From contig JAIXMN010000026.1 of NCBI GenBank assembly GCA_025716815.1, positions 461,087 through 525,086 on the forward strand: DNA of 64,000 bases. Reading direction: 5' to 3'. The position numbers were made by a program, and so were the translations under genes. The stretch comes from Dichotomocladium elegans. Lineage: Eukaryota; Mucoromycota; Mucoromycetes; Mucorales; Lichtheimiaceae. A model generated the notes under the pieces. The model made no database searches, had not been told where the DNA came from, and worked only from the letters and a program-made list of their open reading frames with translations. The stretch's first letter is position 1; each line of letters opens with the position of its first letter. This document shows positions 32,574-52,355 of this stretch, in pieces.

Positions 32574-32890
32574 TGTAACAGTACAGGCACTGTTGTGCGA
32601 GTACTTACAAAGAGCGTCTGATATACAGCGTGGAGGAAGCGCGAACGCGACGAGAAGAACGATGATTATAATAATACAACGTGGGGATGCCCGACGTCAC
32701 AGGGCATCCTTGTTTATATAGTAAACAGTAGCGGGGTAATTACAGTGGTATACATATATGATCGTCGTACAGAGAAAGTGAGTGTGGTACATAATGTCGT
32801 CGCCGGAGATGCGGTCTTGATCGTGATCGTTATCCTTGTAGTATCTTGGTCGTCGGTCAAGAGTGACCCGTCACTGTAGCTACTGCTACA
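32574..32890 (-). repeat. 3' LTR of element B
   Basis: 317 bp, TGTAACAG to TGCTACA on the plus strand. The purine tract of the element (GGGGGGAGAA on the minus strand) lies directly at 32891-32900. Confidence 0.93.
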
Positions 32891-33653
32891 TTCTCCCCCC
32901 TCTAAACCAAGTCCACCTCTGGACTGGAACAAACCTGAGGAAACGTCGGGAGAAATCGTCGTCGTCAATATAATGCGTCTATTGACCTGCGTGTTCTATA
33001 ATTTGTGAGACAGAGATGACACGAGTTAACCACTTCGTCGTCGTCGTCATCCTAACGTCGTCCATCACAATCGTCGTCGTGATCCACATGAACTATGGAT
33101 GGCATCTGCTTGCGCGCAGCCAGAGGACAGTCTGGTCTGGTTGTAAAATACGTATGCTAGAGAGCAGTGACGGGCGTTGTCGTGCGTGCGTTAACCCTAT
33201 GACTCTTCGACCTTAACACCCCTATTAATCGTCGGGTAGCCTAAGGCTGTTAGCATTCGTCGTTAAGGCGGTCATATAATGGGTGTATCCATTCCTCCCC
33301 CCTCGAAAAAAAGGCGTCTCGAGACAGAGGCGGTAAGATCAAAATACTGCAAGTAGCGCAAGCGTAACAGATGAAGAACATACTGCCAAGTATCAGATCC
33401 GAAAATCACCACAACGCATATACTGCCTAAGCGTAACAAGGAAGTGGTAATCCCATCACATCAACAGGGCGTAACAGACTCCAAACATACTGCAAGCGGA
33501 AACAAGCGTAACGTCAACCCGACAGGAGAATTGGAAACTAGACAGGGTTCGTCGTGGCAAGAAGGCTGAAGGACACGAAGCCTAAATGCGGAATGCTGTA
33601 TAAACAGCCGTGCAAAGCGTCCCAATCAAGATTGGCGAGCGTCAACCAAACGG
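32891..33653 (-). other. Long non-coding 3' region of element B
   Basis: About 760 bp between the integrase stop and the 3' LTR; counterpart of 48412-49176 in C, with repeated GTTACGC and CAGTAT words and many GACG words on the minus strand. No ORF. Confidence 0.8.
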
Positions 33654-36600
33654 TTACTTGCCTAAACGGCGTGAGCGGCGAGTCGGTGAAACAACATCCA
33701 CTATAGACTTTTGCTCATGGAAACGTCGGAGAGACTCCTTAGCATTGGTCAGATTTGACGCAGGTTCCCAGGTGGCTTCGTGACGTGGATACCCCTTCCA
33801 AAGAACAAGGTATTGGGTTTTGCCGCGTCGGGTGCATGCGTCCAAAATCTCGTCGACCTCATATTCGTTCGTTCGTGTAATGACTGCTGGAGGTCTGTCC
33901 GGCCGTCGCTCTTCATCGTCAGGTTCATTATAAACCTTCAGAGCACTGATATGAAAAACGTCATGAGCCGTCATCGTCTAGGGAGTGCAAGACGATATGC
34001 TACAGGTCCAATGCGTTCCAGGATCTTGTAAGGGCCTGCCCATCGTGGCAGTAACTTCTTCGTCGGGGAAGAGGAGTATATGTCGGGATTGATATTCGTC
34101 GTTCTAACAAGAACTTGCATACCCACTTCCAATTCCACTTCACAGCGTCTGGCATTAGCATACTTAGCTTGTCGTTCTGCCGCAGCGTCGAGCTGTAAAA
34201 GCACCTCTTTGCAGATGGAGTCAAGTTTGCTAGCCAATTCGTCGGCCGAAGCCACGTCTGATGGAGTACCAGGCGTCAGAGCAGGAGAGACATTCCGTCC
34301 CAAGTCAGCGAAGAAAGGCGTGATGCCAATCGAGGCGTGCTTGGTGTCGTTATACGTATGCTCTAGAATTGGTAACCATCGATCCCAGTCACGTTGGTCA
34401 TAAGCGATGTAATTGCGCAGCATGTCTTCGAGCGTCCGATTCGTGCGTTCCGTCTGTCCGTCGCTTTGAGGATGGAAAGCCGTCGATAAATTGCGTTTGA
34501 TGCCAAGCATCTTCGTGAGAGCGGCCCAGAATCGAGAGGTAAAACGTACGTCACGATCACTTACAAGATCGTCGGGTAGACCATGCTGGCGATAAATCTC
34601 TCGAAAGAACAGATCAGCAAAATCCTCAGCAGTATCCGTCGTCTTGCATGGAGCAAAGTGGGCACGCTTGGAGAAGCGATCCACAAATACTGCGATAGCG
34701 TCGAAATTGCGTTTCGTCTTGGGCAAATGCGTAATAAAGTCCATGGAGACTGATGCCCAACGTCCCTGAGCCCGTTGCAATGGTTGCAAGAGGCCTGCAG
34801 GCTTAGAGTTCGTCGGTTTCACCCTTTGACACATGTCGCACGTGGATATATATCGTCGGACAGTTTTGCTCATATGAGGCCAGTAGTAAATGCGTCCTAC
34901 GCGCTCGAGCGTTGCGTCGATCCCCCTATGCCCTGCTACTGGTGCATCATGTGCGTCATGCAATATACGATTTAGCAGCGTCGGCATGCGAGGGACACAG
35001 ATTCGTCGTCGTCCATCCACAACTCGATATAATATGCCGTCCTCCATCGAGTATTCACTGTCAACCTCCTCCCCGGTTCGTAACTTGGCAATAACGTCGG
35101 TCCACAGTGCGTCCTTACAATAATATTTGATAAGATCGTGGCCAAGCGTCTCCCCCGGACCACAAGAGCCATATGATGTATCGCCATGTGGGCGTCGGCA
35201 TGCGTCGGCTCATCCGGAGGCCACTTAGAGAGAGCGTCAGCGGCCGCGTTCTTTTCGCGAGGAATATGATAAACATCGAACTGGTAAGACATGAATTTTT
35301 CCAGCCATCGTGCCTGTCGGGAAGAGAGATTCGTGTTTGTGTGAAGAGTGGAGATAGCGCGGTTGTCCGTGAAGAGCGTAAAGCGACGCCCGTCCAAATG
35401 ATGGCGCCATTCACTAAGACAAAAAATAACCACAAGCAACTCGAGTTCGTGTACGGGATAATTCCGTTCTGCACCTTTCAAAGTCCGAGATGCAAAAGCG
35501 ACAGGGTGCAAAAGACCATCGTCCTGTTCCTGGGAGAGAATGCCACCAATAGCGACCATAGTCGATGCGTCGGTGTGCACGTAAAAGCGTCGAGAGGGAT
35601 CAGGAAGTGCAAGAACAGGGGCAGAGGTAAGCCGTCGCTTTAGTTCGTCAAAAGCCGTCTGTTGCGCGTCACCCCACGTCCAAGGAACATCCTTACGAAG
35701 GAGTTCGTTGAGGGGCACAGTAACCTCTGCGTACTGGTGCACAAAGCGTCGATAATAGTTACAAAATCCGAGAAACGTCTGGAGGTCACCCACACTTTTG
35801 GGCGCCGTCCACTTCGTGACCGCGTCGAGCTTTCTAGGCTCACACCATACACCGTCAGCCCCTACCTCATGTCCAAGGAACTCAAGTCGAGACATCCCGA
35901 AAGCACACTTAGACCATTTGGCGTAGAGCTTGTGTTGACGTAGTCGTCCCAAAACCTTATTCAGGTGTTTGGCGTGATCCTCAGGCGTCTTACTGTAGAT
36001 GAGAATATCATCCAAGTAAACAATAACGCACTCGTCGAGGAGGTCGTGAAAAACGTTGTTGAGAGCCCGCATAAACGTCGAGGGAGCCGAAGCTAGACCC
36101 ATTGGCATAACCGTAAAAGCGTAGAGTCCATATCTCGTCAGGAAACTGGTTTTTGGGACATCGTCTTCCTTGACTCGTATTTGGTAATAGCCAGAACGAA
36201 GGTCCATCTTCGAGAACACTCTGGCACCACGGAGCTGCTCCATGAGATCGTCGGTGCGAGGTAATGGGTATCAGTCCTTTATAGTAACGCGATTCAAAGC
36301 TCGATAATCCACTACCATTCGTAGGGTACCATCCTTCTTGCCCACAAACAGAACCGGTGCACCATAAGGCGCACTGGACGGTTTAATCCACCCCTTTGCC
36401 AATAAATCGTCGAGCGTCCGTTTCAGCTCTGCCAACTCACGTGTGGATAAGCGATATAAACGTTGAGCTGGTGGTCGTGCGTCTGGCTCTAGAGGGATGG
36501 TGTGTTCAACGTCGCGTTCAGGTGGCAGCCCAGTAGGAAGATCGTCGGGAATACGTCAGCATAGTCCTTGAGAAGTTTGTCTAACCCTGGTACGAAAACC

Positions 36601-37247
36601 TTGGTTCCGTCAGACTCTAACTTCTCCGTAAAGAGGACCACAAAGCTTTCCCCGTCAGGCGCGTCGATGAGCTGATTCCCTTCATGCCGGGATGCATAAT
36701 TGATCTCGACTTGGATTGGAACGTCGGAAGGGCTCATCTTGTTCGTCCGCCAGTCAATATTGGGGTTCTCGTCGTAAAGCCAGCTTTTTCCCAAAAGAAC
36801 GTCATGGGAGTTACTGACAATACCTGTATATAATCGTACTGAGGAATTGAAATCGTCCATTACGATAGTAGCGTCAATGTATGCCAGCGAGTTACCAATG
36901 CTGCCATTGGCAAACGTCACTGAAGACATTCGTTCGTCGTTGACCAATTCGTCGCTCAATTGGAAACGGTTCAGGAAAGAGCTGGTCACAAAATCGTGCG
37001 TAGCGCCACTGTCAATTAAAATCCGGGCTGGGTACCCATTGACCAGCCCATCACGTCGGATCAAAACATGGCGGTTAGTGAAAGTATCGTCGTCGCATAC
37101 GTCCGTAATCGAAAAGGCAAAACGTGAAAGAGCATTATAAGGAACGTCTAATGCGTCTTTATTATCCCCACTCGCGGGGGGCGACAAAAGAGGAGAACCA
37201 GCAGAGTTGGTGCCTCTACTGGCGGATCTAGTTTTTTTCCACCGCAT
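33654..37247 (-). pseudogene. Element B pol (protease-RT-RNase H-integrase-chromodomain), defective
   Basis: The minus strand holds the protease (ILIDSGATHDFVTSSFL), RT with YLDD, RNase H (FYVHTDAS, FTLFTDNRAIS) and integrase with HHCC, MDFI, SDRDVRF, ERTNR plus a chromodomain, in C-like order. Compared with C there is a lost T after DYADVF (about 36550), a CGA-to-TGA change in KDRYPL (36271-36273), and a lost G before the integrase tail (about 33985). The RNase H/integrase frame change at the C5 run 35152-35156 is shared with C. The MRWKKTRSAS start overlaps the gag stop. Confidence 0.85.
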
Positions 37248-38529
37248 TGGCGGAACGGGGCGCCGAGCGAGAGCGAGAACGAGAGCACCGAGAGCCCGAG
37301 GAACGACCGGAACGCCAGAGGAACGCCCAGAGGAACGGCCAGAAGAGCGGCCAGAGGAACGGCCAGAGGAACGGTTGGCATCGCCATACTGGGGGCAGTG
37401 CTTGCCTGGTGTCCGGGCTTATAGCACCGAACACAAAGGTTGCGGCGCTGGACTTCGGCCCAAGAAAGTCCAGAAGGTTGGCCGGACACTCGTCGGGTAG
37501 AACGTCGCCGTTCTACCCCGTCAACCTCCATCTCGTCGACAGGAGCATGAATGCTACTGCCAAGGCCTAGGGCATTACCGTTGCCCCAGGTCGCGTCATA
37601 ACGGGTGGCCAAGAGCACGGCCTCGTCGTACGACTTTGGGTCCTTAAAACGGACCCAACGCTGCACATTCGGCTTTAGGCCATGCAAAAACCGTCGGCGC
37701 ACCTCAGTGTGGACAACTCCTGCTGGTTGCAGCGTCCCTTCGCGTCGTTGAAGGCCGCCACATACGACGGTATGGTCGTACGTTGGCGCGTCGCCTCCCA
37801 CTTGCTGCGGTTCAGCTCGTCCTGGTTTGGGGGTAACCAGCGTTGCCGCAGGGCCGTCGTAAAGTCACCCCACGTGCGGGGCTCCTTGTTCTCCACGCAA
37901 AGGAGTCGGAACCAGCTGAGGGCTCCGTCAGTCAAAAGACTCGCCGCGTAATCCACCTTCTCGGCGTCGGTGGAGTTACGGGCGTTGCGGTAATACCGCG
38001 TGAGCCCAAACAGCCAGTCCTCCAAAGCGTTGGGGTCACCCCCCGAAAACTTCGCGTCCGGAGCCACGATCTTGATGCGTTTGGCATCCGAGGGAGCGTC
38101 GCCAGGCGTCGCTGCAGTCACCACCGAAGTGGCAACAGCAGCCGTGGCAGGGGCGGAGGTAGCGTCGGTGTTGGACGTGGCGGAGGCAACACCAAGAGAA
38201 AGGGCCAACAGCTGGGTCTGGATGGCAGCAAGCGTCGCTGCCACGTCCGCCAGATGGGCGTTTTGGGCTGTAAGCCCCGCAGAGACCTCCTGGAGCTGCT
38301 GCTCGATGCCGCCCACGCGGCGGTCGTTCGCCGCCATGGCCTTGGTGAAGGAGTCGTCGGCTGCTTGAAGGGTGGCCCCAAAATTCTCGAACTCCGCACG
38401 GACTTGGCAGAAGTTCTCGTCTGTCCGCTCAGCACGAGTGGACAATTCCTGGATCGACCCAATTATGGGCTCCAGCGTCGCGGCCGAGGCGGTTGCCGCA
38501 AGAGGGTGGTTCTCAGTGGGAGCAGACAT
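37148..38529 (-). pseudogene. Element B gag, frameshifted
   Basis: Starts MSAPTENHPL and matches C gag for 276 codons, then shifts frame at QQELS owing to a one-base loss in GACGCT (about 37716), with another lost G in the zinc knuckle (PGHQ, about 37410). The Ser-Gly-Arg repeat after the knuckle is shorter than in C and differs in composition. Confidence 0.85.
37231..37237 (-). promoter_or_regulatory. Candidate -1 frameshift site of element B
   Basis: Minus strand reads A AAA AAC immediately before the TAG gag stop, identical to element C at 44825-44831. Slipping one base back enters the pol frame. Confidence 0.75.
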
Positions 38530-38786
38530 GGCGGGAGGCTTGTGGGGAGGTCGACAGAGGAGACAGAAGAAGCGAGAGAGACTTGGTTGGCGGTGGTGTG
38601 GTTCGTGCGTCGAAACTTGATCTTTCTTTTGTGTGTCCTAGCGTCGAAAGATAGTTTCTGTGAGCGTCGTGTCTTTTATGGTAAAGAGGAACCCGCGCAA
38701 AATGGCACGTCGTTCATAACGTCGAAAAACAAGCGAGTATATCACGTCGAGATGATGCAGTGTTCGAAACTACATCAGCTACCAAC

Positions 38787-39103
38787 TGTAACAGTACAGG
38801 CACTGTTGTGCGAGTACTTACAAAGAGCGTCTGATATACAGCGTGGAGGAAGCACGAACGCGACGAGAAGAACGATGATTATAATAATACAACGTGGGGA
38901 TGCCCGACGTCACAGGGCATCCTTGTTTATATAGTAAACAGTAGCGGGGTAATTACAGTGGTATACATATATGATCGTCGTACAGAGAAAGTGAGTGTGG
39001 TACATAATGTCGTCGCCGGAGATGCGGTCTTGATCGTGATCGTTATCCTTGTAGTATCTTGGTCGTCGGTCAAGAGTGACCCATCACTGTAGCTACTGCT
39101 ACA
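38787..39103 (-). repeat. 5' LTR of element B
   Basis: 317 bp; reads out leftward. Directly left of it, at 38775-38786, is the primer-binding site, minus-strand TGGTAGCTGATG after a 2-base gap. Confidence 0.93.
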
Positions 39104-40196: not shown

Positions 40197-41547
40197 ATGT
40201 CAGCTCCCTCTCCCTCCAACAACGACTTCGACCTTCCTTCCGTTCGCGCGCAACGAGCGGCACCAACCAGCCGCGAAATGATGCACCTGTGCCCCTGTCG
40301 TCGAGGCAACCCGCGCCACATCAGTGGTGCAGCAGGCTGTGGAAGCCGTGGAGTCCTTGCGGGTGATCTCACCCTGCTAATGCTGCAACGCACGGCCGCC
40401 GCCGGGAACGCTGGGCTGAGCACGCCCGTCTAAGGGAGCAGATGAGCCTGCTTGAGCAGGAATCGCCAAACTGGAGTGTGGTAGAGAGTTAGTGGCAAGT
40501 AGAAACCAATGAGTCAAAATCGAGTCTTTGAGACGGGATCCTCTTTATTGAATAAAAACAACTCTCTTTTTATATGCATTGGGATGGACCATGTTAGCTT
40601 TGCCGGAACAAGTGTTAGCTGTTGACACCACTTCTCTGCTACTCTCCATCTGTAGTTAATATTCCGGGTGATTGTTCCCTCCGTCTTCATTAAGAGGAAA
40701 TCACCAATTGGATAGATGTGAGATGGAAGAAGTCAGGGCATCAAGACGTACTTGCGGGAATTGTTGGACGAATAGCAGTTCCGCTCACTACTGACTGTGC
40801 AAGTGCAGTGTCATGAACAGGAGGACTACGACAGGCACGCCTGCTCATGAGTCCAGCCCCAGGATCGATATCCTCGTTCGCCGAAACCTCGAGCACTCCT
40901 TCCCTTCCTGGTGTCGACCGCTGGGCGATGCCCGCCAACTGCCCCGTTTTCCAGTGGGAAGGATTCGTCTGGCGTCCGGCGTCGATGGTCTTCGCGACCA
41001 TTCAAGCTGCTTGCGTGCCTTTGGGATATCCTCGCCGCAGCGGGCCAAGCCCCTGACCTTGTCTGGGCTGTACTTGCCTGTCCTGCTCTCGCCAGAGCAT
41101 CGATCGTGGTTTGAGGAACACCTCGCCCGCATAGCAACGAGCCCTGGTCGTTTGCTCAGTGGCCCTGAGCAGGAGTTTTCCGTTGACCAGACGGAGCAGT
41201 TAGCTGCTGCCGTCGAGGCAGTCATGGTAGCAAAGATGCTGCGTAGAGAGACTGTCGCCGAGTGGAACGGGCGGTTCCAAAAGCTGCATAGGGACGCGCG
41301 TATGCGGATGACAGCATTGCTGCCAATCGGTACCTCAACGGCCTCCGTCCTGAAATCGCCGAGCGGGTCAACATTGCTCATGCCAGCCTGCCTGCCACCC
41401 TCATGGCACCTCCCAGCAACTGGGACAAATCGCGCTTAACCTCGAGGCAACTTTGGCTCTGACGTCTCCTCTTCCTCTCGCGCTGCTCCGCGTTCCTCTG
41501 CCGGACGGGACTCACCGTCTGCTTCAGCGCCGGCTGGACAGTCCCTC
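40197..41547 (+). pseudogene. Element D gag, decayed
   Basis: Opens with MSAPSPSNNDFDLPS but is soon out of frame. Pieces such as VAKMLRRETVAEWNGRFQKL and YLNGLRPEIAERVNIAHASL in different frames show a retrotransposon gag core. It is interrupted by an LTR fragment at 40477-40627. Confidence 0.65.
40477..40627 (-). repeat. Inverted fragment of a D-type LTR
   Basis: TGTGGTAGAGAGTTAG to GTTGACA with the CTTTATTGAATAAAAACAAC core inverted. It lacks the 5' half of the LTR and a target duplication. Confidence 0.55.
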
Positions 41548-42930
41548 ATGGACTCTATCCACGTCCCTAAGCGACGGGCGAGCACCTCTGGTAGCTCTGA
41601 ACGATCCGGCCTGGAGGGTGGCGCCCCCTCTCGAAAAAAGCGCTGCGATGTCCATGGGATGGGTCGACACACCACGGACGAGTGTCAGGCGCGGCGCAAG
41701 ATCCTGCCCCAAGAACGCCAGAAGGCCAGCGTCCCATCTTCTGCGGCCCGCGCTCCCAGGGATGGGAAAAAGATTGCGACGTGTTGGTGGTGTGGTGGCG
41801 CCTTCACTCGAGGGCACCAATGCCCTCCCAAGAACCTGATGATGCGGGCCCACCAGCACGTCAAGAGAGAGTGCTCCCCGGTGGCCGCTTCCCAGTCTTC
41901 CTCCGCCCACTCCCGTTCCCGTTCGCGCTCCGGCTCTGTGCCTCGTTCCTCCCCTCGCTCTGCTCCTCGCACGGCTCGTCGGTCGGCCATGCCACTGCAG
42001 CCCAAGTCCCCAGATGCCTTGGACAGCGAGCCTGAGGACATAGAGATGTCAGACGTGTACAACGCGTTGTATGGTCCTTCACACCAGTGTAAGCATACAC
42101 AGAAACAGGACTTACCTTCCGCACATACACGCTCACACCACTTCCCCATCACAATAGAAGGCCAGCCCCTTTGGGCCCTGCTGGACACCGGCGCTACAGA
42201 CAGCACCGTTTCCCCTTCATTGTGCGCACGCTTTGGTTGGTCTGTGTCTCCGGCAGCCGGGACCATACACTTAGCTTCTGCTGGGGTTACTCTTCCTCAT
42301 GTGGGAATTGTAAATAAAAAGTTGGCTGTGAGCTGTAACCGTCGGACTATCTCCCATACTTTTGATGTGCTAGATTTGCATGGCGAAGTCGATGTGTGCA
42401 TTGGTACTGACCTGATGAAAGCTCTTGGTATTCACATAGTAGGATTACCCATCGACTGGGACACTTCCGCTCTCGCGCACCTTCCAGAATCTACCAGAGA
42501 TGACGATTCCGAAGTCCCAAATGATTCCCCTGCAGGATCGCCAGCTGAGCACGCGAAGTTCATGCAGGATATCCAACCCTTTCTCGCTGCAAACACAGCC
42601 ATCCCTATCAACTCTTTCTGCACACTTCCAGAAGCAATTGTTCGTCTCGAAACACCGCCGGGCGCTGTAGCCTACCAGGCCCAATACAAGCTGCCAGCGA
42701 CCCTCATGCCTCTTCTGCAGCAGCATGTCGACAAATGGCTTGCCGACGGTGTCATCAAGAAATCGCATACTATCAGCCATTGGAACAGTCCGATCGTTTT
42801 CGCAAGGAAGAAGGACAGCGACGGCAACTATACCAAGTATCGCCCCTGTCTCGATGTACGTCAGCTCAATCTACTCCTACCCGAAGATCGGTTTCCACTG
42901 CCCCACTTGTCAGACATCTTCGAGCGCACC
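41548..42930 (+). pseudogene. Element D gag C-terminus, protease and RT start
   Basis: 461 codons stay open: a CCHC-like cysteine knuckle (CWWCGGAFTRGHQC), an Arg-Ser-rich stretch (HSRSRSRSGSVPRSS), the protease (LWALLDTGATDSTVS, IGTDLMKALGI), and the RT N-terminus (WNSPIVFARKKD, YRPCLDVRQLN, PLPHLSDIFERT). It is cut by element C at GCACC. Confidence 0.85.
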
Positions 42931-43247
42931 TGTAGCAGTAGCTACAGTGACGGGTCACTCTTGACCGACGACCAAGATACTACAAGGATAACGATCACGA
43001 TCAAGACTGCATCTCCGTCGACGACATTATGTACCACACTCACTTTCTCTGTACGACGATCCTATATGTATACCACTGTAATTACCCCGCTACTGTTTAC
43101 TATATAAACAAGGATGCCCTGTGACGTCGGGCATCCCCACGTTGTATTATTATAATCATCGTTCTTCTCGTCGCGTTCGCGCTTCCTCCACGCTGTATAT
43201 CAGACGCTCTTTGTAAGTACTCGCACAACAGTGCCTGTACTGTTACA
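42931..43247 (+). repeat. 5' LTR of element C
   Basis: TGTAGCAGTAGC to TACTGTTACA; contains ACTATATAAACAAGG as TATA region. Confidence 0.95.
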
Positions 43248-43249
43248 GT

Positions 43250-43261
43250 TGGTAGCTGATG
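43250..43261 (+). promoter_or_regulatory. Primer-binding site of element C
   Basis: TGGTAGCTGATG two bases after the LTR, complementary to a tRNA 3' end ...CATCAGCTACCA. The same 12-mer follows the LTR of element G at 60653, so B, C and G prime from the same tRNA. Confidence 0.7.
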
Positions 43262-43505
43262 TAGTTTCGAACACTGCATCATCTCGACGTGATATACTCG
43301 CTTGTTTTTCGACGTTATGAACGACGTGCCATTTTGCGCGGGTTCCTCTTTACCATAAAAGACACGACGCTCACGGAAACTATCTTTTGACGCTAGGACA
43401 CACAAAAGAAAGATCAAGTTTCGACGCACGAACCACACCACCGCCAACCAAGTCTCTCTCGCTTCTTCTGTCTCCTCTGTCGACCTTCCCCACAAGCCTC
43501 CCGCC

Positions 43506-44834
43506 ATGTCTGCTCCCACTGAGAACCACCCTCTTGCGGCAACCGCCTCGGCCGCGACGCTGGAGCCCATAATTGGGTCGATCCAGGAATTGTCCGCTCG
43601 TGCTGAGCGGACAGACGAGAACTTCCGCCAAGTCCGTGCGGAGTTCGAGAATTTTGGGGCCACCCTGCAAGCAGCCGACGACTCCTTCACCAAGGCCATG
43701 GCAGCGAACGACCGCCGCGTGGGCGGCATCGAGCAGCAGCTCCAGGAGGTCTCCGCGGGGCTTACAGCCCAAAACGCCCATCTGGCGGACGTGGCAGCGA
43801 CGCTTGCTGCCATCCAGACCCAGCTGTCGGCCCTTTCTCTTGGTGTTGCCTCCGCCACGTCCAACACCGACGCTACCTCCGCCCCTGCCACGGCTGCTGT
43901 TGCCACTTCGGTGGTGACTGCAGCGACGCCTGGCGACGCTCCCTCGGATGCCAAACGCATCAAGATCGTGGCTCCGGACGCGAAGTTTTCGGGGGGTGAC
44001 CCCAACGCTTTGGAGGACTGGCTGTTTGGGCTCACGCGGTATTACCGCAACGCCCGTAACTCCACCGACGCCGAGAAGGTGGATTACGCGGCGAGTCTTT
44101 TGACTGACGGAGCCCTCAGCTGGTTCCGACTCCTTTGCGTGGAGAACAAGGAGCCCCGCACGTGGGGTGACTTTACGACGGCCCTGCGGCAACGCTGGTT
44201 ACCCCCAAACCAGGACGAGCTGAACCGCAGCAAGTGGGAGGCGACGCGCCAACGTACGACCGTACCGTCGTATGTGGCGGCCTTCAACGACGCGAAGGGA
44301 CGCTGCAACCAGCAGGAGTTGTCCGACGCTGAGGTGCGCCGACGGTTTTTGCATGGCCTAAAGCCGAATGTGCAGCGTTGGGTCCGTTTTAAGGACCCAA
44401 AGTCGTACGACGAGGCCGTGCTCTTGGCCACCCGTTATGACGCGACCTGGGGCGACGGTAATGCCCTAGGCCTTGGCAGTAGCATTCATGCTCCTGTCGA
44501 CGAGATGGAGGTTGACGGGGTAGAACGGCGACGTTCTACCCGACGAGTGTCCGGCCAACCTTCTGGACTTTCTTGGGCCGAAGTCCAGCGCCGCAACCTT
44601 TGTGTTCGGTGCTATAAGCCCGGACACCAGGGCAAGCACTGCCCCCAGTATGGCGATGCCAACCGTTCCTCTGGCCGTTCCTCTGGCCGCTCTTCTGGCC
44701 GTTCCTCTGGGCGTTCCTCTGGCCGTTCCGGTCGTTCCTCGGGCTCTCGGCGCTCTCGTTCTCGCTCTCCCTCCCGGTCCCGCTCTCGCTCTCGCTCGGC
44801 GCCCCGTTCCGCCAATGCGGTGGAAAAAAACTAG
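43506..44834 (+). CDS. Element C gag (capsid-nucleocapsid)
   Basis: 442 aa from MSAPTENHPL to the TAG at 44832. An N-terminal coiled-coil region (about 20-110), an Ala/Thr-rich linker, the gag core (KFSGGDPNALEDWLFGLTRYY, LLTDGALSWFRLL, WGDFTTALRQRW, SYVAAFNDAKGRC, RRRFLHGLKP) and one CCHC zinc knuckle (CVRCYKPGHQGKHC, about 370-383). After the knuckle come SSGR tetrapeptide repeats and an Arg-Ser tail similar to splicing-factor RS domains. Gag coats and packages element RNA. Frame is intact, unlike in B. A slippery site precedes the stop. Confidence 0.93.
   Translation: MSAPTENHPLAATASAATLEPIIGSIQELSARAERTDENFRQVRAEFENFGATLQAADDSFTKAMAANDRRVGGIEQQLQEVSAGLTAQNAHLADVAATLAAIQTQLSALSLGVASATSNTDATSAPATAAVATSVVTAATPGDAPSDAKRIKIVAPDAKFSGGDPNALEDWLFGLTRYYRNARNSTDAEKVDYAASLLTDGALSWFRLLCVENKEPRTWGDFTTALRQRWLPPNQDELNRSKWEATRQRTTVPSYVAAFNDAKGRCNQQELSDAEVRRRFLHGLKPNVQRWVRFKDPKSYDEAVLLATRYDATWGDGNALGLGSSIHAPVDEMEVDGVERRRSTRRVSGQPSGLSWAEVQRRNLCVRCYKPGHQGKHCPQYGDANRSSGRSSGRSSGRSSGRSSGRSGRSSGSRRSRSRSPSRSRSRSRSAPRSANAVEKN
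44825..44831 (+). promoter_or_regulatory. Candidate -1 frameshift site, gag/pol of C
   Basis: A AAA AAC in the gag frame (GAA AAA AAC TAG), a canonical -1 slippery heptamer abutting the gag stop. A one-base insertion in C (CACCC at 44848-44852 versus CACC in B) closes the pol frame shortly after, so C may not make a Gag-Pol fusion although B's junction is open. Confidence 0.75.
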
Positions 44835-44875
44835 ATCCGCCAGTAGAGGCACCCAACTCTGCTGGTTCTCCTCTT

Positions 44876-47092
44876 TTGTCGCCCCCCGCGAGTGGGGATA
44901 ATAAAGACGCATTAGACGTTCCTTATAATGCTCTTTCACGTTTTGCCTTTTCGATTACGGACGTATGCGACGACGATACTTTCACTAACCGCCATGTTTT
45001 GATCCGACGTGATGGGCTGGTCAATGGGTACCCAGCCCGGATTTTAATTGACAGTGGCGCTACGCACGATTTTGTGACCAGCTCTTTCCTGAACCGTTTC
45101 CAATTGAGCGACGAATTGGTCAACGACGAACGAATGTCTTCAGTGACGTTTGCCAATGGCAGCATTGGTAACTCGCTGGCATACATTGACGCTACTATCG
45201 TAATAGACGATTTCAATTCCTCAGTACGGTTATATACAGGTATTGTCAGTAACTCCCATGACGTTCTTTTGGGAAAAAGCTGGCTTTACGACGAGAACCC
45301 CAATATTGACTGGCGGACGAACAAGATGAGCCCTTCCGACGTTCCAATTCAAGTCGAGATCAATTATGCATCCCGGCATGAAGGGAATCAGCTCATCGAC
45401 GCGCCTGACGGGGAAAGCTTTGTGGTCCTCTTTACGGAGAAGTTAGAGTCTGACGGAACCAAGGTTTTCGTACCAGGGTTAGACAAACTTCTCAAGGACT
45501 ATGCTGACGTATTTCCCGACGATCTTCCTACTGGGCTGCCACCTGAACGCGACGTTGAACACACCATCCCTCTAGAGCCAGACGCACGACCACCAGCTCA
45601 ACGTCTATACCGCTTATCCACACGTGAGTTGGCAGAGCTGAAACGGACGCTCGACGATTTATTGGCAAAGGGGTGGATTAAACCGTCCAGTGCGCCTTAT
45701 GGTGCACCGGTTCTGTTTGTGGGCAAGAAGGATGGTACCCTACGAATGGTAGTGGATTATCGAGCTTTGAATCGCGTTACTATAAAGGACCGATACCCAT
45801 TACCTCGCACCGACGATCTCATGGAGCAGCTCCGTGGTGCCAGAGTGTTCTCGAAGATGGACCTTCGTTCTGGCTATTACCAAATACGAGTCAAGGAAGA
45901 CGATGTCCCAAAAACCAGTTTCCTGACGAGATATGGACTCTACGCTTTTACGGTTATGCCAATGGGTCTAGCTTCGGCTCCCTCGACGTTTATGCGGGCT
46001 CTCAACAACGTTTTTCACGACCTCCTCGACGATTGCGTTATTGTTTACTTGGATGATATTCTCGTCTACAGTAAGACGCCTGAGGATCACGCCAAACACC
46101 TGAATAAGGTTTTGGGACGACTACGTCAACACAAGCTCTACGCCAAATGGTCTAAGTGTGCTTTCGGGATGTCTCGACTTGAGTTCCTTGGACATGAGGT
46201 AGGGGCTGACGGTGTACGGTGTGAGCCTAGAAAGCTCGACGCGGTCACGAAGTGGACGGCGCCCAAAAGTGTGGGTGACCTCCAGACGTTTCTCGGATTT
46301 TGTAACTATTATCGACGCTTTGTGCACCAGTACGCAGAGGTTACTGTGCCCCTCAACGAACTCCTTCGTAAGGATGTTCCTTGGACGTGGGGTGACGCGC
46401 AACAGACGGCTTTTGACGAACTAAAGCGACGGCTTACCTCTGCCCCTGTTCTTGCACTTCCTGATCCCTCTCGACGCTTTTACGTGCACACCGACGCATC
46501 GACTACGGTCGCTATTGGTGGCATTCTCTCCCAGGAACAGGACGATGGTCTTTTGCACCCTGTCGCTTTTGCATCTCGGACTTTGAAAGGTGCAGAACGG
46601 AATTATCCCGTACACGAACTCGAGTTGCTTGCGGTTATTTTTTGTCTTAGTGAATGGCGCCATCATTTGGACGGGCGTCGCTTTACGCTCTTCACGGACA
46701 ACCGCGCTATCTCCACTCTTCACACAAACACGAATCTCTCTTCCCGACAGGCACGATGGCTGGAAAAATTCATGTCTTACCAGTTCGACGTTTATCATAT
46801 TCCTCGCGAAAAGAACGCGGCCGCTGACGCTCTCTCTAAGCGGCCTCCGGATGAGCCGACGCATGCCGACGCCCACATGGCGATACATCATATGGCTCTT
46901 GTGGTCCGGGGGAGACGCTTGGCCACGATCTTATCAAATATTATTGTAAGGACGCACTGTGGACCGACGTTATTGCCAAGTTACGAACCGGGGAGGAGGT
47001 TGACGGTGAATACTCGATGGAGGACGGCATATTATATCGAGTTGTGGATGGACGACGACGAATCTGTGTCCCTCGCATGCCGACGCTGCTAA
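44876..47092 (+). CDS. Element C pol: protease, reverse transcriptase, RNase H
   Basis: The frame is open from about 44850; no ATG at the start is expected because it should be entered by frameshift. Aspartic protease (RILIDSGATHDFV, then LLGKSWLY), RT ([51 protein letters not shown] at about 46050), a Ty3-type connection, and RNase H (HTDASTTVAIGG, ELELLAVIFCLSEW, FTDNRAIS, ADALSKRPP). The frame leaves the biological one after about 46912: downstream residues (VVRGRRLATILS) are shifted, and integrase lies one base back. Confidence 0.9.
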   Translation: MSPPASGDNKDALDVPYNALSRFAFSITDVCDDDTFTNRHVLIRRDGLVNGYPARILIDSGATHDFVTSSFLNRFQLSDELVNDERMSSVTFANGSIGNSLAYIDATIVIDDFNSSVRLYTGIVSNSHDVLLGKSWLYDENPNIDWRTNKMSPSDVPIQVEINYASRHEGNQLIDAPDGESFVVLFTEKLESDGTKVFVPGLDKLLKDYADVFPDDLPTGLPPERDVEHTIPLEPDARPPAQRLYRLSTRELAELKRTLDDLLAKGWIKPSSAPYGAPVLFVGKKDGTLRMVVDYRALNRVTIKDRYPLPRTDDLMEQLRGARVFSKMDLRSGYYQIRVKEDDVPKTSFLTRYGLYAFTVMPMGLASAPSTFMRALNNVFHDLLDDCVIVYLDDILVYSKTPEDHAKHLNKVLGRLRQHKLYAKWSKCAFGMSRLEFLGHEVGADGVRCEPRKLDAVTKWTAPKSVGDLQTFLGFCNYYRRFVHQYAEVTVPLNELLRKDVPWTWGDAQQTAFDELKRRLTSAPVLALPDPSRRFYVHTDASTTVAIGGILSQEQDDGLLHPVAFASRTLKGAERNYPVHELELLAVIFCLSEWRHHLDGRRFTLFTDNRAISTLHTNTNLSSRQARWLEKFMSYQFDVYHIPREKNAAADALSKRPPDEPTHADAHMAIHHMALVVRGRRLATILSNIIVRTHCGPTLLPSYEPGRRLTVNTRWRTAYYIELWMDDDESVSLACRRC
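46908..46912 (+). other. Run of five G at RNase H/integrase frame change
   Basis: Reading GTC CGG GGG then slipping back one base gives GAG ACG CTT GGC CAC GAT, entering the integrase frame (GETLGHDLIKYY). Element B has the same five-base run and the same frame change. Confidence 0.6.
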
Positions 47093-48411
47093 ATCGTATA
47101 TTGCATGACGCACATGATGCACCAGTAGCAGGGCATAGGGGGATCGACGCAACGCTCGAGCGCGTAGGACGCATTTACTACTGGCCTCATATGAGCAAAA
47201 CTGTCCGACGATATATATCCACGTGCGACATGTGTCAAAGGGTGAAACCGACGAACTCTAAGCCTGCAGGCCTCTTGCAACCATTGCAACGGGCTCAGGG
47301 ACGTTGGGCATCAGTCTCCATGGACTTTATTACGCATTTGCCCAAGACGAAACGCAATTTCGACGCTATCGCAGTATTTGTGGATCGCTTCTCCAAGCGT
47401 GCCCACTTTGCTCCATGCAAGACGACTGATACTGCTGAAGATTTTGCTGATCTGTTCTTTCGAGAGATTTATCGCCAGCATGGTCTACCCGACGATCTTG
47501 TAAGTGATCGTGACGTACGTTTTACCTCTCGATTCTGGGCCGCTCTCACGAAGATGCTTGGCATCAAACGCAATTTATCGACGGCTTTCCATCCTCAAAG
47601 CGACGGACAGACGGAACGCACGAATCGGACGCTCGAAGACATGCTGCGCAATTACGTCGCTTATGACCAACGTGACTGGGATCGATGGTTACCAATTCTA
47701 GAGCATACGTATAACGACACCAAGCACGCCTCGATTGGCATCACGCCTTTCTTCGCCGACTTGGGACGGAATGTCTCTCCTGCTCTGACGCCTGGTACTC
47801 CATCAGACGTGGCTTCGGCCGACGAATTGGCTAGCAAACTTGACTCCATCCGCAAAGAGGTGCTTTTACAGCTCGACGCTGCGGCAGAACGACAAGCTAA
47901 GTATGCTAATGCCAGACGCCGTGAAGTGGAATTGGAAGTGGGTATGCAAGTTCTTGTTAGAACGACGAATATCAATCCCGACGTATACTCCTCTTCCCCG
48001 ACGAAGAAGTTACTGCCACGATGGGCAGGCCCTTACAAGATCCTGGAACGTATTGGGCCTGTGGCATATCGTCTTGCACTCCCTGAGACGATGACGGCTC
48101 ATGACGTTTTTCATATCAGTGCTCTGAAGGTTTATAATGAACCTGACGATGAAGAGCGACGGCCGGACAGACCTCCAGCAGTCATTACACGAACGAACGA
48201 ATATGAGGTCGACGAGATTTTGGACGCACGCACCCGACGCGGCAAAACCCAATACCTTGTTCTTTGGAAGGGGTATCCACGTCACGAAGCCACCTGGGAA
48301 CCTGCGTCAAATCTGACCAACGCTAAGGAGTCTCTCCGACGTTTCCATGAGCAAAAGTCTATAGTGGATGTTGTTTCACCGACTCGCCGCTCACGCCGTT
48401 TAGGCAAATAA
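47017..48411 (+). CDS. Element C integrase with chromodomain
   Basis: 464 aa from the first ATG; the frame itself is open from about 46880, including KYYCKDALWTDVI. HHCC zinc finger (HDAHDAPVAGHRG to CDMC), catalytic core DDE (MDFITHLP, SDRDVRFTSRFW, HPQSDGQTERTNR), GPY/F module (PRWAGPYKILERIG), and a chromodomain (YEVDEILDARTRRGKTQYLVL, KGYPRHEATWEPASNL) close to the C-terminus. It inserts the cDNA, and the chromodomain probably guides it to marked chromatin. It is one base out of frame with the RT-RNase H frame. Confidence 0.92.
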   Translation: MEDGILYRVVDGRRRICVPRMPTLLNRILHDAHDAPVAGHRGIDATLERVGRIYYWPHMSKTVRRYISTCDMCQRVKPTNSKPAGLLQPLQRAQGRWASVSMDFITHLPKTKRNFDAIAVFVDRFSKRAHFAPCKTTDTAEDFADLFFREIYRQHGLPDDLVSDRDVRFTSRFWAALTKMLGIKRNLSTAFHPQSDGQTERTNRTLEDMLRNYVAYDQRDWDRWLPILEHTYNDTKHASIGITPFFADLGRNVSPALTPGTPSDVASADELASKLDSIRKEVLLQLDAAAERQAKYANARRREVELEVGMQVLVRTTNINPDVYSSSPTKKLLPRWAGPYKILERIGPVAYRLALPETMTAHDVFHISALKVYNEPDDEERRPDRPPAVITRTNEYEVDEILDARTRRGKTQYLVLWKGYPRHEATWEPASNLTNAKESLRRFHEQKSIVDVVSPTRRSRRLGK

Positions 48412-49176
48412 CCGTTTGGTTAACGCTCACCAATCTTGATTGGGACGCTTTGCACGGCTGTTTATACAGCATTCCGCATTTAGGCTTCGTGTCCTTCAGC
48501 CTTTTTGCCACGACGAACCCTGTCTAGTTTCCAATTCTCCTGTCGGGTTGACGTTACGCTTGTTTCCGCTTGCAGTATGTTTGGAGTCTGTTACGCCCTG
48601 TTGATGTGATGGGGTTACCACTTCCTTGTTACGCTTAGGCAGTATATGCGTTGTGGTGATTTTCGGATCTGATACTTGGCAGTATGTTCTTCATCTGTTA
48701 CGCTTGCGCTACTTGCAGTATTTTGATCTTACCGCCTCTGTCTCGAGACGCCTCTTTTTTTCGAGGGGGGAGGAATGGATACACCCATTATATGACCGCC
48801 TTAACGACGAATGCTAACAGCCTTAGGCTACCCGACGATTAATAGGGGTGTTAAGGTCGAAGAGTCATAGGGTTAACGCACGCACGACAACGCCCGTCAC
48901 TGCTCTCTAGCATACGTATTTTACAACCAGACCAGACTGTCCTCTGGCTGCGCGCAAGCAGACGCCATCCATAGTTCATGTGGATCACGACGACGATTGT
49001 GATGGACGACGTTAGGATGACGACGACGACGAAGTGGTTAACTCGTGTCATCTCTGTCTCACAAATTATAGAACACGCAGGTCAATAGACGCATTATATT
49101 GACGACGACGATTTCTCCCGACGTTTCCTCAGGTTTGTTCCAGTCCAGAGGTGGACTTGGTTTAGAGGGGGGAGAA
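48412..49176 (+). other. Long non-coding 3' region of element C
   Basis: 765 bp without an ORF, unusually long for a Gypsy 3' region. At about 48550-48725 the words GTTACGC and CAGTAT recur about four times each at irregular spacing. CGACGACGACG clusters occur near 48990, 49020 and 49100. Ends in a polypurine tract AGAGGGGGGAGAA at 49164-49176. Confidence 0.8.
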
Positions 49177-49493
49177 TGTAGCAGTAGCTACAGTGACGGG
49201 TCACTCTTGACCGACGACCAAGATACTACAAGGATAACGATCACGATCAAGACTGCATCTCCGTCGACGACATTATGTACCACACTCACTTTCTCTGTAC
49301 GACGATCCTATATGTATACCACTGTAATTACCCCGCTACTGTTTACTATATAAACAAGGATGCCCTGTGACGTCGGGCATCCCCACGTTGTATTATTATA
49401 ATCATCGTTCTTCTCGTCGCGTTCGCGCTTCCTCCACGCTGTATATCAGACGCTCTTTGTAAGTACTCGCACAACAGTGCCTGTACTGTTACA
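49177..49493 (+). repeat. 3' LTR of element C
   Basis: 317 bp, apparently identical to 42931-43247. Confidence 0.95.
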
Positions 49494-49498
49494 GCACC

Positions 49499-51984
49499 GG
49501 GGGATCAACAATTTTCACGACTCTCGGCTTGACGAATGCTTTTCATCAGTTCCCCATCACAGAAGAGCACCAACATAAAACGGCATTCAAAGTCAATGGT
49601 ATACAGTATGTGTTCCGGGGTGCACCCTTTCGGCATTCGCTTGCTGTCATTTAAGTATCAAGCTGTCATGGAACGGTTGTTTTCCGACCTTCCTTATGTG
49701 TCACTCTTCATTGATGATCTTTGTGTCCATAGCGCCAGCTTCAAAGAACATGTTCCTCATGTACAGGAAGTTGTCCGCCGTCTCACGCGAGCCAATCTCA
49801 TCCTCAACCGTGATAAGTGTGCCTTTGGACAGCGCAAGGTGTACCTTCTGGGATTCTGTATCTCAGCAGCAGGCATTGCTTTGGATCCTCGAAAGGTCGC
49901 CAACATAGCGGCCTGGCCCCAGCCCGCTATGGGCAAAGATATGCAACGGTTCCTCGGTGCCGTGAACTTCCTCCGGGACCATGTACCTCGATTTGCACCG
50001 ACAACGTGGCCACTGGACAGTTTGCGCAACGCAGGGGATCTCTCGCAGTTGTGGACAGAAGAGCACACGCGCGCATTCAATAACATCAAACTCGCGCTTA
50101 CGCAAGCTCCAGTACTCTGTCATCCAAATTTGCAGCAACCTTTCTGCCTAGCTACTGATGCAAGTGACGTGGGGGTGGGGGTATGCCTCTATCAGGTCAT
50201 CAACAATCAGATTCGTTACATCGGTTTCAAGGCCAAGGCATTATCTCCCAGCCAGCAACGCTGGTCGGTTACTAAACGCGAGCTCTTTGCAGTCGTTTAC
50301 GGACTTCGACAGCTCCGACACTGGCTCTGGGGACGTCGTTTTACCCTTTACACTGACCATGCTGCACTAACATATCTCCACACGCAACCGCTAGTCAATC
50401 CAATGATGGCTCGTTGGCTTGACGACCTGTACGATTTCGATTTCGAGGTAGTGCATCTGCCAGGTATGGACAACGTTCTGCCTGACGCCTTCTCCCGTCT
50501 TTTTCCTGCGGACAAAAGTCTGGTGGGGGGTAAAGGAAAGAGCAACGTTTCAGGCAGCACGTCACGGAACCTTATCACCAATGCTGCAGGCTCAGCCACA
50601 CGAAAAGTCTCCTCCTCTTCTTCTTCACATTCCTCTGAGAACAACACCGACGGTCATGCGCCCATTCTCGCACGCGCACAACACTTTGAGCCCGTCGACT
50701 TCATGACGCCTCCCGAGCACGAACGTACCGAATTACTGCAGAAAGCGCATTTACTCGGTCACTTCGGTGCCGACGCAATCACCAAGTCCATTCACAGTGA
50801 CGGGCTGCACTGGGCTAACCTACGCAAGGACGCCCAGAAGCTTGTCTCGCAATGCATGGACTGTCAACGCTTCAATGTCGGCAAACATGGTTTCCAGCCA
50901 TTGCGTCATGTCACCGCTAAGTGCCCAGGCGATCATTGGGCTATTGATCTTGGTACGCTCAACATTACATCTGACAGTGGTAACAGCTACTTACTCGTCA
51001 TGGTCGACATTTTCACACGCTACTGCGTCCTGAGAGCAATTCCGGATAAGTCTGCACTTACTATAGCACGACAACTGTGGGCACATATGATGGAGTATGG
51101 ACCCATGCGCACGCTCACCAGTGATAATGGCACAGAATTTGTCAACGACCTCATCACACAGCTTGCAGATATCTCTGGCCTCGACCACCGCCTTATCACT
51201 CCTTATCACCCACGCGCCAACGGCGTAGCAGAGAAATGGGTCGGTCTTGCCAAGAACGCAATCGTCAAACAGCTGCAAGGCAAAAAGTCAGAATGGGACA
51301 TTCACGTCCCAAGCGTGCAATTCGCACTTAACATTAAGCATGCCGCCATACATGGCTCACGACCTTTCTCGCTCATGTTTGCTCGTCCACCCAACGCCTT
51401 CACTAACTACACTGACTCAACTACAGGGGATAGCGCACAACCTACAGTTGACTACGAGGCAGCGCGTGAACGACTTAGCGAGATGGAAGCGGTGGTTATA
51501 CCCGCCATCCATCAGTGCATGAAAGCCACCCGAGATGCTGAAAAAGCCCGCTTCGATTCGAATCACCGGATAGTTGACCCTTATCCAGCTGGCAGCAAGG
51601 TCATGATCCGCAACGTCACCAGGGGTAGCAAGACGGAACCGCGGTATGAAGGACCATTCACTGTTAATGGGGTCAACAAGGGTGGGGCATACGTCCTGAC
51701 AGACTCGACAGGCGCGCTCCTTCCGTTCAATATCCCACCATCGCACATCAAACTTATCTCGCAAGAACCAGTGCCATCCAGCCAGGACCACTATGAAGTG
51801 CAGGCAATCATTGATCATGATGGCACTCCAGGCAACTATGTTTATCGTACACGCTGGAAGGGATACACGGAAAAAGATGACACATGGGAACCAGCGGCTA
51901 ACTTCACAGGCACAGAACTAATCACGGAATACTGGCAGCGTCGCAACCCGAAAGCCAACAACCGTATACAACAGGGACTAAGGG
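49499..51984 (+). pseudogene. Element D RT, RNase H, integrase and chromodomain
   Basis: Resumes in frame after C (GGSTIFTTLGLTNAFHQF). A one-base insertion in RGAPFG (about 49632) breaks the frame once; after that it stays open to 51984. RT has FIDD in place of YXDD, then a Ty3-type RNase H (ATDASDVGVGVCLYQ, LYTDHAALTYL), integrase (HLLGHFGADAITKSIH to CMDC, IDLGTLNI, SDNGTEFVND, ANGVAEKWV), GPF module and chromodomain (YVYRTRWKGYTEKDDTWEP). The C-terminus runs into the E LTR. Confidence 0.87.
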
Positions 51985-52355
51985 TGAGATGGATGGATTA
52001 GAGAGAATGAAAAAAGACAACTATAAAAGTATCTTTGAGGTTGATGTTTATTCCTGAAAATAAAATAACTCTCTTTTATAATAATTCTATTAGAACGGCG
52101 ATGTAAGTGCTTAATCCTGTTAGGACGTATCGGATGAGAGCATTCTCTTTTCATTGTCCTCTTCAAGACCAGTGATGGATCCTGGGTAGAGGAAGTACCT
52201 TTGATAGGTGCGATTGTCCTGTCACGCAAGCGGATATGAAAATATCGGTCCCTGAACATCAATGTGTTAAATTCATCATTGTCTTAGTTTCAGGATATCG
52301 GCGATAGTGATGTGAAACCGGCTAAGTTCTCTAACACGGATCAATGTTCACCACA
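51985..52355 (-). repeat. 3' LTR of element E
   Basis: TGAGATGGATGG to TTCACCACA on the plus strand; TATAAAAGAG and AATAAAC on the minus strand. The polypurine tract on the minus strand (GGAAGGGGGTAA) abuts at 52356. Confidence 0.93.

Follow-up and report, generated by a model that had tools for sequence, protein, structure and literature searches.

A sense-strand GACG word saturates a chromovirus family of Dichotomocladium elegans, consistent with selection on an RNA motif putatively read by Gag

The window, a stretch of 64,000 nucleotides from a 39.4 Mb assembly of 122 contigs, contains two copies, here called C and B, of one family of LTR retrotransposons. Their features, numbered from the first letter of the window, are as follows.

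32574–39103, minus strand: element B, second copy of the C family, 98.7% identical to C in the main aligned piece
42931–49493, plus strand: element C, a Ty3/gypsy chromovirus, flanked by GCACC at 42926–42930 and 49494–49498
42931–43247, plus strand: 5' LTR of C (6 GACG, 3 CGTC)
43248–43502, plus strand: leader of C between LTR and gag, 255 nt (6 GACG, 0 CGTC)
43506–44834, plus strand: gag of C, with a Ty3-type capsid, a CX2CX4HX4C knuckle and an (RSSG)n and RSRSRS tail (25 GACG)
44618–48411, plus strand: pol of C, with protease, reverse transcriptase, RNase H, integrase and chromodomain (91 GACG within 44835–48411)
48415–49176, plus strand: 3' non-coding region of C, 762 nt (20 GACG, 1 CGTC)
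49177–49493, plus strand: 3' LTR of C (6 GACG)

The LTR pair and the target duplication GCACC around C mark it as a Ty3/gypsy element, and Pfam, run on the family copy L042, identified RVT_1, RT_RNaseH, rve, Integrase_H2C2 and Chromo in pol, as expected of a chromovirus, and Retrotrans_gag and Ty3_capsid in Gag. The LTRs of C are identical at all 300 nucleotides compared, and its pol is split into two overlapping open reading frames (44618–47092 and 46855–48411). By eye, a long apparent tRNA primer-binding site starts at about 43250 (43248–43275), with TGGTAGCTGATG and a TTCGAA stretch behind it, seemingly complementary to a tRNA 3' half. Ty3 reading frames flank C on the same strand (41440–42930 and 49499–52001) with GCACC at both junctions, and look like the two halves of a single older element into which C was inserted; the neighbour designated D in an earlier, sequence-only reading probably represents the 3' portion of the element lying before C, split by that insertion. 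Across the assembly 150 reverse-transcriptase matches were scored among 528 candidates, with many open frames of more than 1000 amino acids, and the genome thus holds many Ty3-type elements that are apparently young.

The saturation of C and B with GACG on the sense strand is real and strong. Element C contains 154 GACG, one per 42 nt, against 25.6 expected from base composition (about sixfold), and 18 CGTC; its 500-base bins hold 8–17 GACG and 0–3 CGTC, with 0–5 of each in most bins elsewhere in the window. The sequence-only reading had drawn attention to about 10 copies in 46201–46440, where exactly 10 are present, and to 9 in 47761–48000, where only eight lie wholly inside; the near-absence of CGTC that it described holds in both stretches (none in either). 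Likewise, the two stretches of D that it gave as devoid of the word (49861–50100 and 51001–51240) contain no GACG (CGTC 0 and 1), and B is the mirror image, with 7–15 CGTC and 0–3 GACG per 500 bases between 32501 and 39000.

The strand bias extends, as had been proposed, over coding and non-coding parts alike, with an excess of GACG in the LTRs, leader, gag, pol and 3' region. Gag and pol hold 116 of the 154 copies; the leader (6 against a dinucleotide-shuffle mean of 1.7 and maximum of 5) and the 3' non-coding region, described earlier as filled with the word (20 against a mean of 5.7 and maximum of 12), each exceed their dinucleotide-shuffle maximum, as gag and pol do. A single LTR only equals it: both LTRs of C carry the six copies first reported, against 0.8 expected for independent bases, a shuffle mean of 1.7 and a maximum of 6 in 500 shuffles, and the excess in one LTR taken alone is not decisive. 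CGTC is not depleted in the LTR (3 against a shuffle mean of 2.5). The spacing of GACG along C is random (coefficient of variation 1.00, against 0.98 for random placement), which rules out even spacing as the sign of a lattice. Only short tandem arrays occur in the region, and a genome-wide pattern for GACG clusters brought up many GAC tandem runs among its matches. The preceding base is C in 82 of the 154 copies, and in 20 of the 32 within the 5' LTR, leader and 3' region, which makes (C)GACG the probable working word.

We compared 20 whole-element loci, comprising 12 of the C family (L039–L050), a subset of its matches in the assembly, and 8 of sister families (L051–L058) whose integrase is 42–46% identical to that of C. 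All 12 family loci were enriched (76–156 GACG, flanks included, against 22–27 expected) and none of the eight sister loci was (16–31 against 21–24), in agreement with the claim that related elements lack the excess. A further eight reverse-transcriptase loci (L001–L008), with their coding strand unresolved, held 9–20 GACG and 9–20 CGTC against 11–15 expected GACG. As far as the loci fetched extend, GACG saturation is confined to the C family, and the evidence for it comes from this one family only. No relatives of C at the DNA level were confirmed in viral contigs or prokaryote genomes.

The same loci differ in their gag regions. Five of the 12 family loci (L039, L043, L044, L048 and L050) lack gag through one common deletion, covering C positions of about 580–2061, a segment bounded in C by GCCATGT on each side; L046 and L049 are unaligned there. 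Elements without gag seem to have multiplied on several occasions, with Gag presumably supplied by full copies. In the sister loci L054–L058 a stop (after QGQ or QGL) ends the gag frame a few residues past the knuckle, and pol is read from a different frame that overlaps it.

A codon or amino-acid preference, possibly acquired from another host through horizontal transfer, could raise the count with GACG itself having no role. Codon usage in C is indeed shifted relative to its sisters (Thr ACG 0.51 versus 0.18, Asp GAC 0.73 versus 0.52) and accounts for 59.5 of the 91 GACG in pol and 20.6 of the 25 in gag. Permutation of synonymous codons within pol, which keeps the unusual codon usage of C itself, gave that mean of 59.5 with a maximum of 74 in 500 shuffles, and a null preserving protein, codon usage and dinucleotides gave 64.2 ± 3.5 with a maximum of 72 in 120 samples (z 7.7 for the observed 91). 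Gag alone gives a weak signal (25 against 20.6 for the codon null and 20.9 when dinucleotides are also kept; z 2.2). Furthermore, all three codon phases of pol are raised (51/16/24 observed, 42.8/6.0/10.8 under the codon null), phases 1 and 2 to more than twice their null, and the LTR, leader and 3' region are enriched too. CGTC lies below the codon null in both genes (2 against 9.6 in gag, 9 against 16.3 in pol), also with dinucleotides kept (2 against 7.3 and 9 against 15.2). The earlier argument that codon choice alone is insufficient is thus borne out, and codon usage alone, disfavoured by the codon- and dinucleotide-preserving nulls, is a very improbable explanation. In a test of all 4-mers GACG reached z 8.4 in C pol, and no 4-mer exceeded |z| of 4 in four sister pols and five other open reading frames of the window, against the idea that other families have a separate signature word.

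The pol protein of C is itself shaped favourably for GACG. With one fixed codon usage, its potential for the word is 32.8 per 1000 codons, compared with 10.0–12.3 in the four sister pols and a mean of 14.6 (standard deviation 3.2) in 120 homologues. For P0008, the closest homologue (68% across the region searched), the potential is 30.5, and the next highest value is 21.8. Since P0008 and C share ancestry, this protein-level potential counts as one event and not two, and the value for P0008 suggests that the trait predates the C family.

Loss of the word in a dead copy was examined using L049, an old and broken member of the family, 90.5% identical to C over 4078 aligned bases. GACG is present in C only at 39 sites and in L049 only at 4, whereas the other 15 NNCG words are divided 78:82 (Fisher P 2e-7 against 39:4) and AACG, CACG and TACG 25:17 (P 0.001). 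L049 retains 66 of the 105 GACG of C, similar to other NNCG words (142 of 220), and C has 66 of the 70 in L049. L050 agrees with this asymmetry (GACG 11:0 versus 15:20, P 0.001) and L048 points more weakly in the same direction (13:5 versus 44:48, P 0.07), while L046, with too few differences, shows none (2:3). GACG, whose conservation among family members the sequence-only reading had advised examining, is kept in C relative to L049, a pattern that could reflect retention of the word in the live lineage or its further gain there.

GACG might also be produced by mutation that is specific to one strand and dependent on context, arising in reverse transcription or through editing of RNA or cDNA, and a strand bias is what processes acting on single-stranded RNA or cDNA would be expected to leave. 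Among 193 singletons in near-identical copies, GACG was created only 3 times (null 1.9) and destroyed 23 times (null 30.2, P 0.06); creation at about the chance rate, together with these losses, indicates that present mutation erodes the word. These singletons may mostly reflect the chromosome life of the copies, and are not assignable to reverse transcription as against host replication, which leaves the mutational account some room. Moreover, none of the 12 words one base away from GACG has been exhausted: they occur at 0.63–1.66 of expectation, and this pool, with only 21–32 of each expected, faces about 128 extra GACG. Mutation bias as the main cause is disfavoured by the singletons and the neighbour words together, and we consider it quite improbable. 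Selection in the live lineage fits the data best, rather than codon usage or mutation bias. An apparent protection of GACG in young copies (5 destroyed against a codon-position-matched null of 13.8, P 0.004) is not relied on: other NACG words are low too (4 against 8.9), so that an effect of mutation context would be enough to account for it, and the division into young copies versus L050 and B was chosen after the counts were known.

A word restricted in this way to one strand, running through coding and non-coding sequence alike and maintained under selection, points to the level of RNA, or of single-stranded cDNA. Of the readings considered, selection acting on a word in the RNA has the most support. 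If instead an element or host protein bound GACG in double-stranded DNA against silencing, as VANC does for VANDAL elements, the build-up of a short motif within a transposable element would have a known precedent (PMC5735166), and the CpG within GACG and the involvement of the LTRs would fit. Binding to double-stranded DNA needs no choice of strand, but gag and pol contain fewer CGTC than expected, and besides these two genes C contains no sense-strand open reading frame of at least 250 amino acids; this DNA-level explanation is improbable.

Predicted RNA structure gives little help in deciding the role of the word. The predicted single-strandedness of GACG (0.18) is above that of its 11 permutations (0.04–0.12) and ranks 15th of the 64 words with three G/C, and in a separate prediction CGTC was unpaired as often as GACG (0.22 versus 0.19). 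Presentation in hairpin loops is unsupported, the predicted loop fraction of GACG being 0.13 against 0.07–0.16 for 13 control words.

The Gag of C carries the zinc knuckle and RS tail attributed to it earlier, CX2CX4HX4C being recognised by eye and followed by (RSSG)n and RSRSRS. Pfam results for the L042 Gag at E 0.001 contain no zf-CCHC, and Pfam finds no RRM in it. RS/SR dipeptides reach 24 per 60 amino acids in the C-family Gag, against 1–3 in three knuckle-bearing sister Gags. In the interrupted neighbouring element, Gag (ORF 41440–43107) likewise carries a motif resembling a zinc knuckle and an RSRSRS stretch, in DNA with no GACG excess, which shows that GACG saturation does not follow from an RS stretch by itself. 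Scoring of 7989 and 7995 candidates yielded no Gag homologue at E 0.001, which is no evidence that none exist, and the most RS-rich stretch in 120 pol homologues had 8 per 50 amino acids, a figure with little bearing on tails as most of these entries contain no Gag.

We favour Gag as the putative reader of GACG because its knuckle and RS tail resemble those of SRSF7, whose knuckle gives specificity for GAY. We put forward tentatively, with nearly as much for it as against it, that (C)GACG is a dispersed RNA motif recognised by an RNA-binding protein, in the likeliest case the Gag of the element itself. Selection would spread GACG, often as CGACG, across the whole genomic RNA of the family, and the RNA-binding protein, likely Gag, would read many copies per RNA. 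Such multivalent binding could mark C-family RNA as self, leading to its gathering into Gag assemblies and to packaging; the marking may perhaps also keep element RNA unspliced and export it, and the low CGTC might prevent GACG from pairing with itself. A stronger form of the proposal, in which four letters are a self-label over the entire RNA and Gag is an SR-protein mimic that reads many copies of it and so distinguishes the RNA of its own element from host RNA and the RNA of sister elements, is possible but rather doubtful.

The main rival to Gag as reader is a host SR protein. A host RNA-binding protein of this kind could serve to stabilise the intronless element RNA, to export it or to keep it unspliced, or could mask cryptic splice or poly(A) sites, and the RNA-level evidence is identical to that for reading by Gag. 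SRSF7 contains an RRM, and host loci gave nine matches to this part of the protein, the best at 48% identity; one host locus (L060) combines an RRM with an RS-rich stretch in another frame. The SRSF7 knuckle (query 106–119) is spanned whole by none of these host matches, the match C51 (query 11–111) stopping inside it. GACGAC is listed for SRSF9, and export of intronless RNA through SRSF3 and SRSF7 has been described (PMC9022966). Sister families without GACG in the same nucleus favour a family-specific reader, and on balance we find a host reader unlikely, though a serious contender.

How Gag selects its own RNA among all the RNA of the cell is only partly understood. A saturated, strand-specific and visibly kept candidate word turns this choice into a simple question of binding and reporter assays and, if the reading is true, the protein and the codon choice of a whole element have been bent to an RNA word. 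To the sequence-only reading the present analysis adds the family comparison, the codon and dinucleotide nulls, maintenance in the live lineage versus loss in a dead copy, and a lack of clear mutational bias towards creating the word. Among the titles and abstracts of open-licence papers listed, a weak probe of the literature, there was no report of such a word in a retrotransposon or of an RS-tailed Gag.

Among known systems, the VANDAL elements of Arabidopsis, with which the sequence-only reading had compared C, share the build-up of one short word within a single group of transposable elements, which in their case encode a dedicated reader (PMC5735166). That part of the comparison stands; it breaks down where the VANDAL motifs, nine bases long and double-stranded, lie in non-coding regions and in tandem repeats (PMC5735166), that of C being a four-base, one-strand word, randomly spaced and lying mostly within gag and pol. 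Ty3, like C a Ty3/gypsy element, has a Gag with one CCHC knuckle needed for RNA packaging, and its RNA packaging is said to need UTRs or POL sequences, the packaging sequences not being precisely defined (PMC4974528). For Ty3 and Ty1 the ends of the element are all that transposition requires in cis once the proteins are supplied, and a repeated word is not described for Ty3 in the available part of that source (PMC4974528); by analogy, this sufficiency of the ends would count against a label read across the whole genomic RNA.

SRSF7 (9G8) has a CCHC knuckle adjoining an RS domain, as the C-family Gag does, and its knuckle shifts specificity to GAY triplets, with the motifs GAYGAY, GGACGACGAG and ACGAGAGAY (PMC9022966). 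The C-family Gag differs in having a capsid domain and no RRM. The closest idea in mechanism is, by analogy, that of the dispersed packaging signals of RNA viruses and of hepatitis B pregenomic RNA, in which many copies of a motif are thought to be bound by the coat protein (PMC6281560). Those signals are stem-loops varying around a motif (PMC6281560), whereas GACG is not enriched in predicted hairpin loops and recurs once per 42 nt in C; in both, many copies of one word lie along the genomic RNA.
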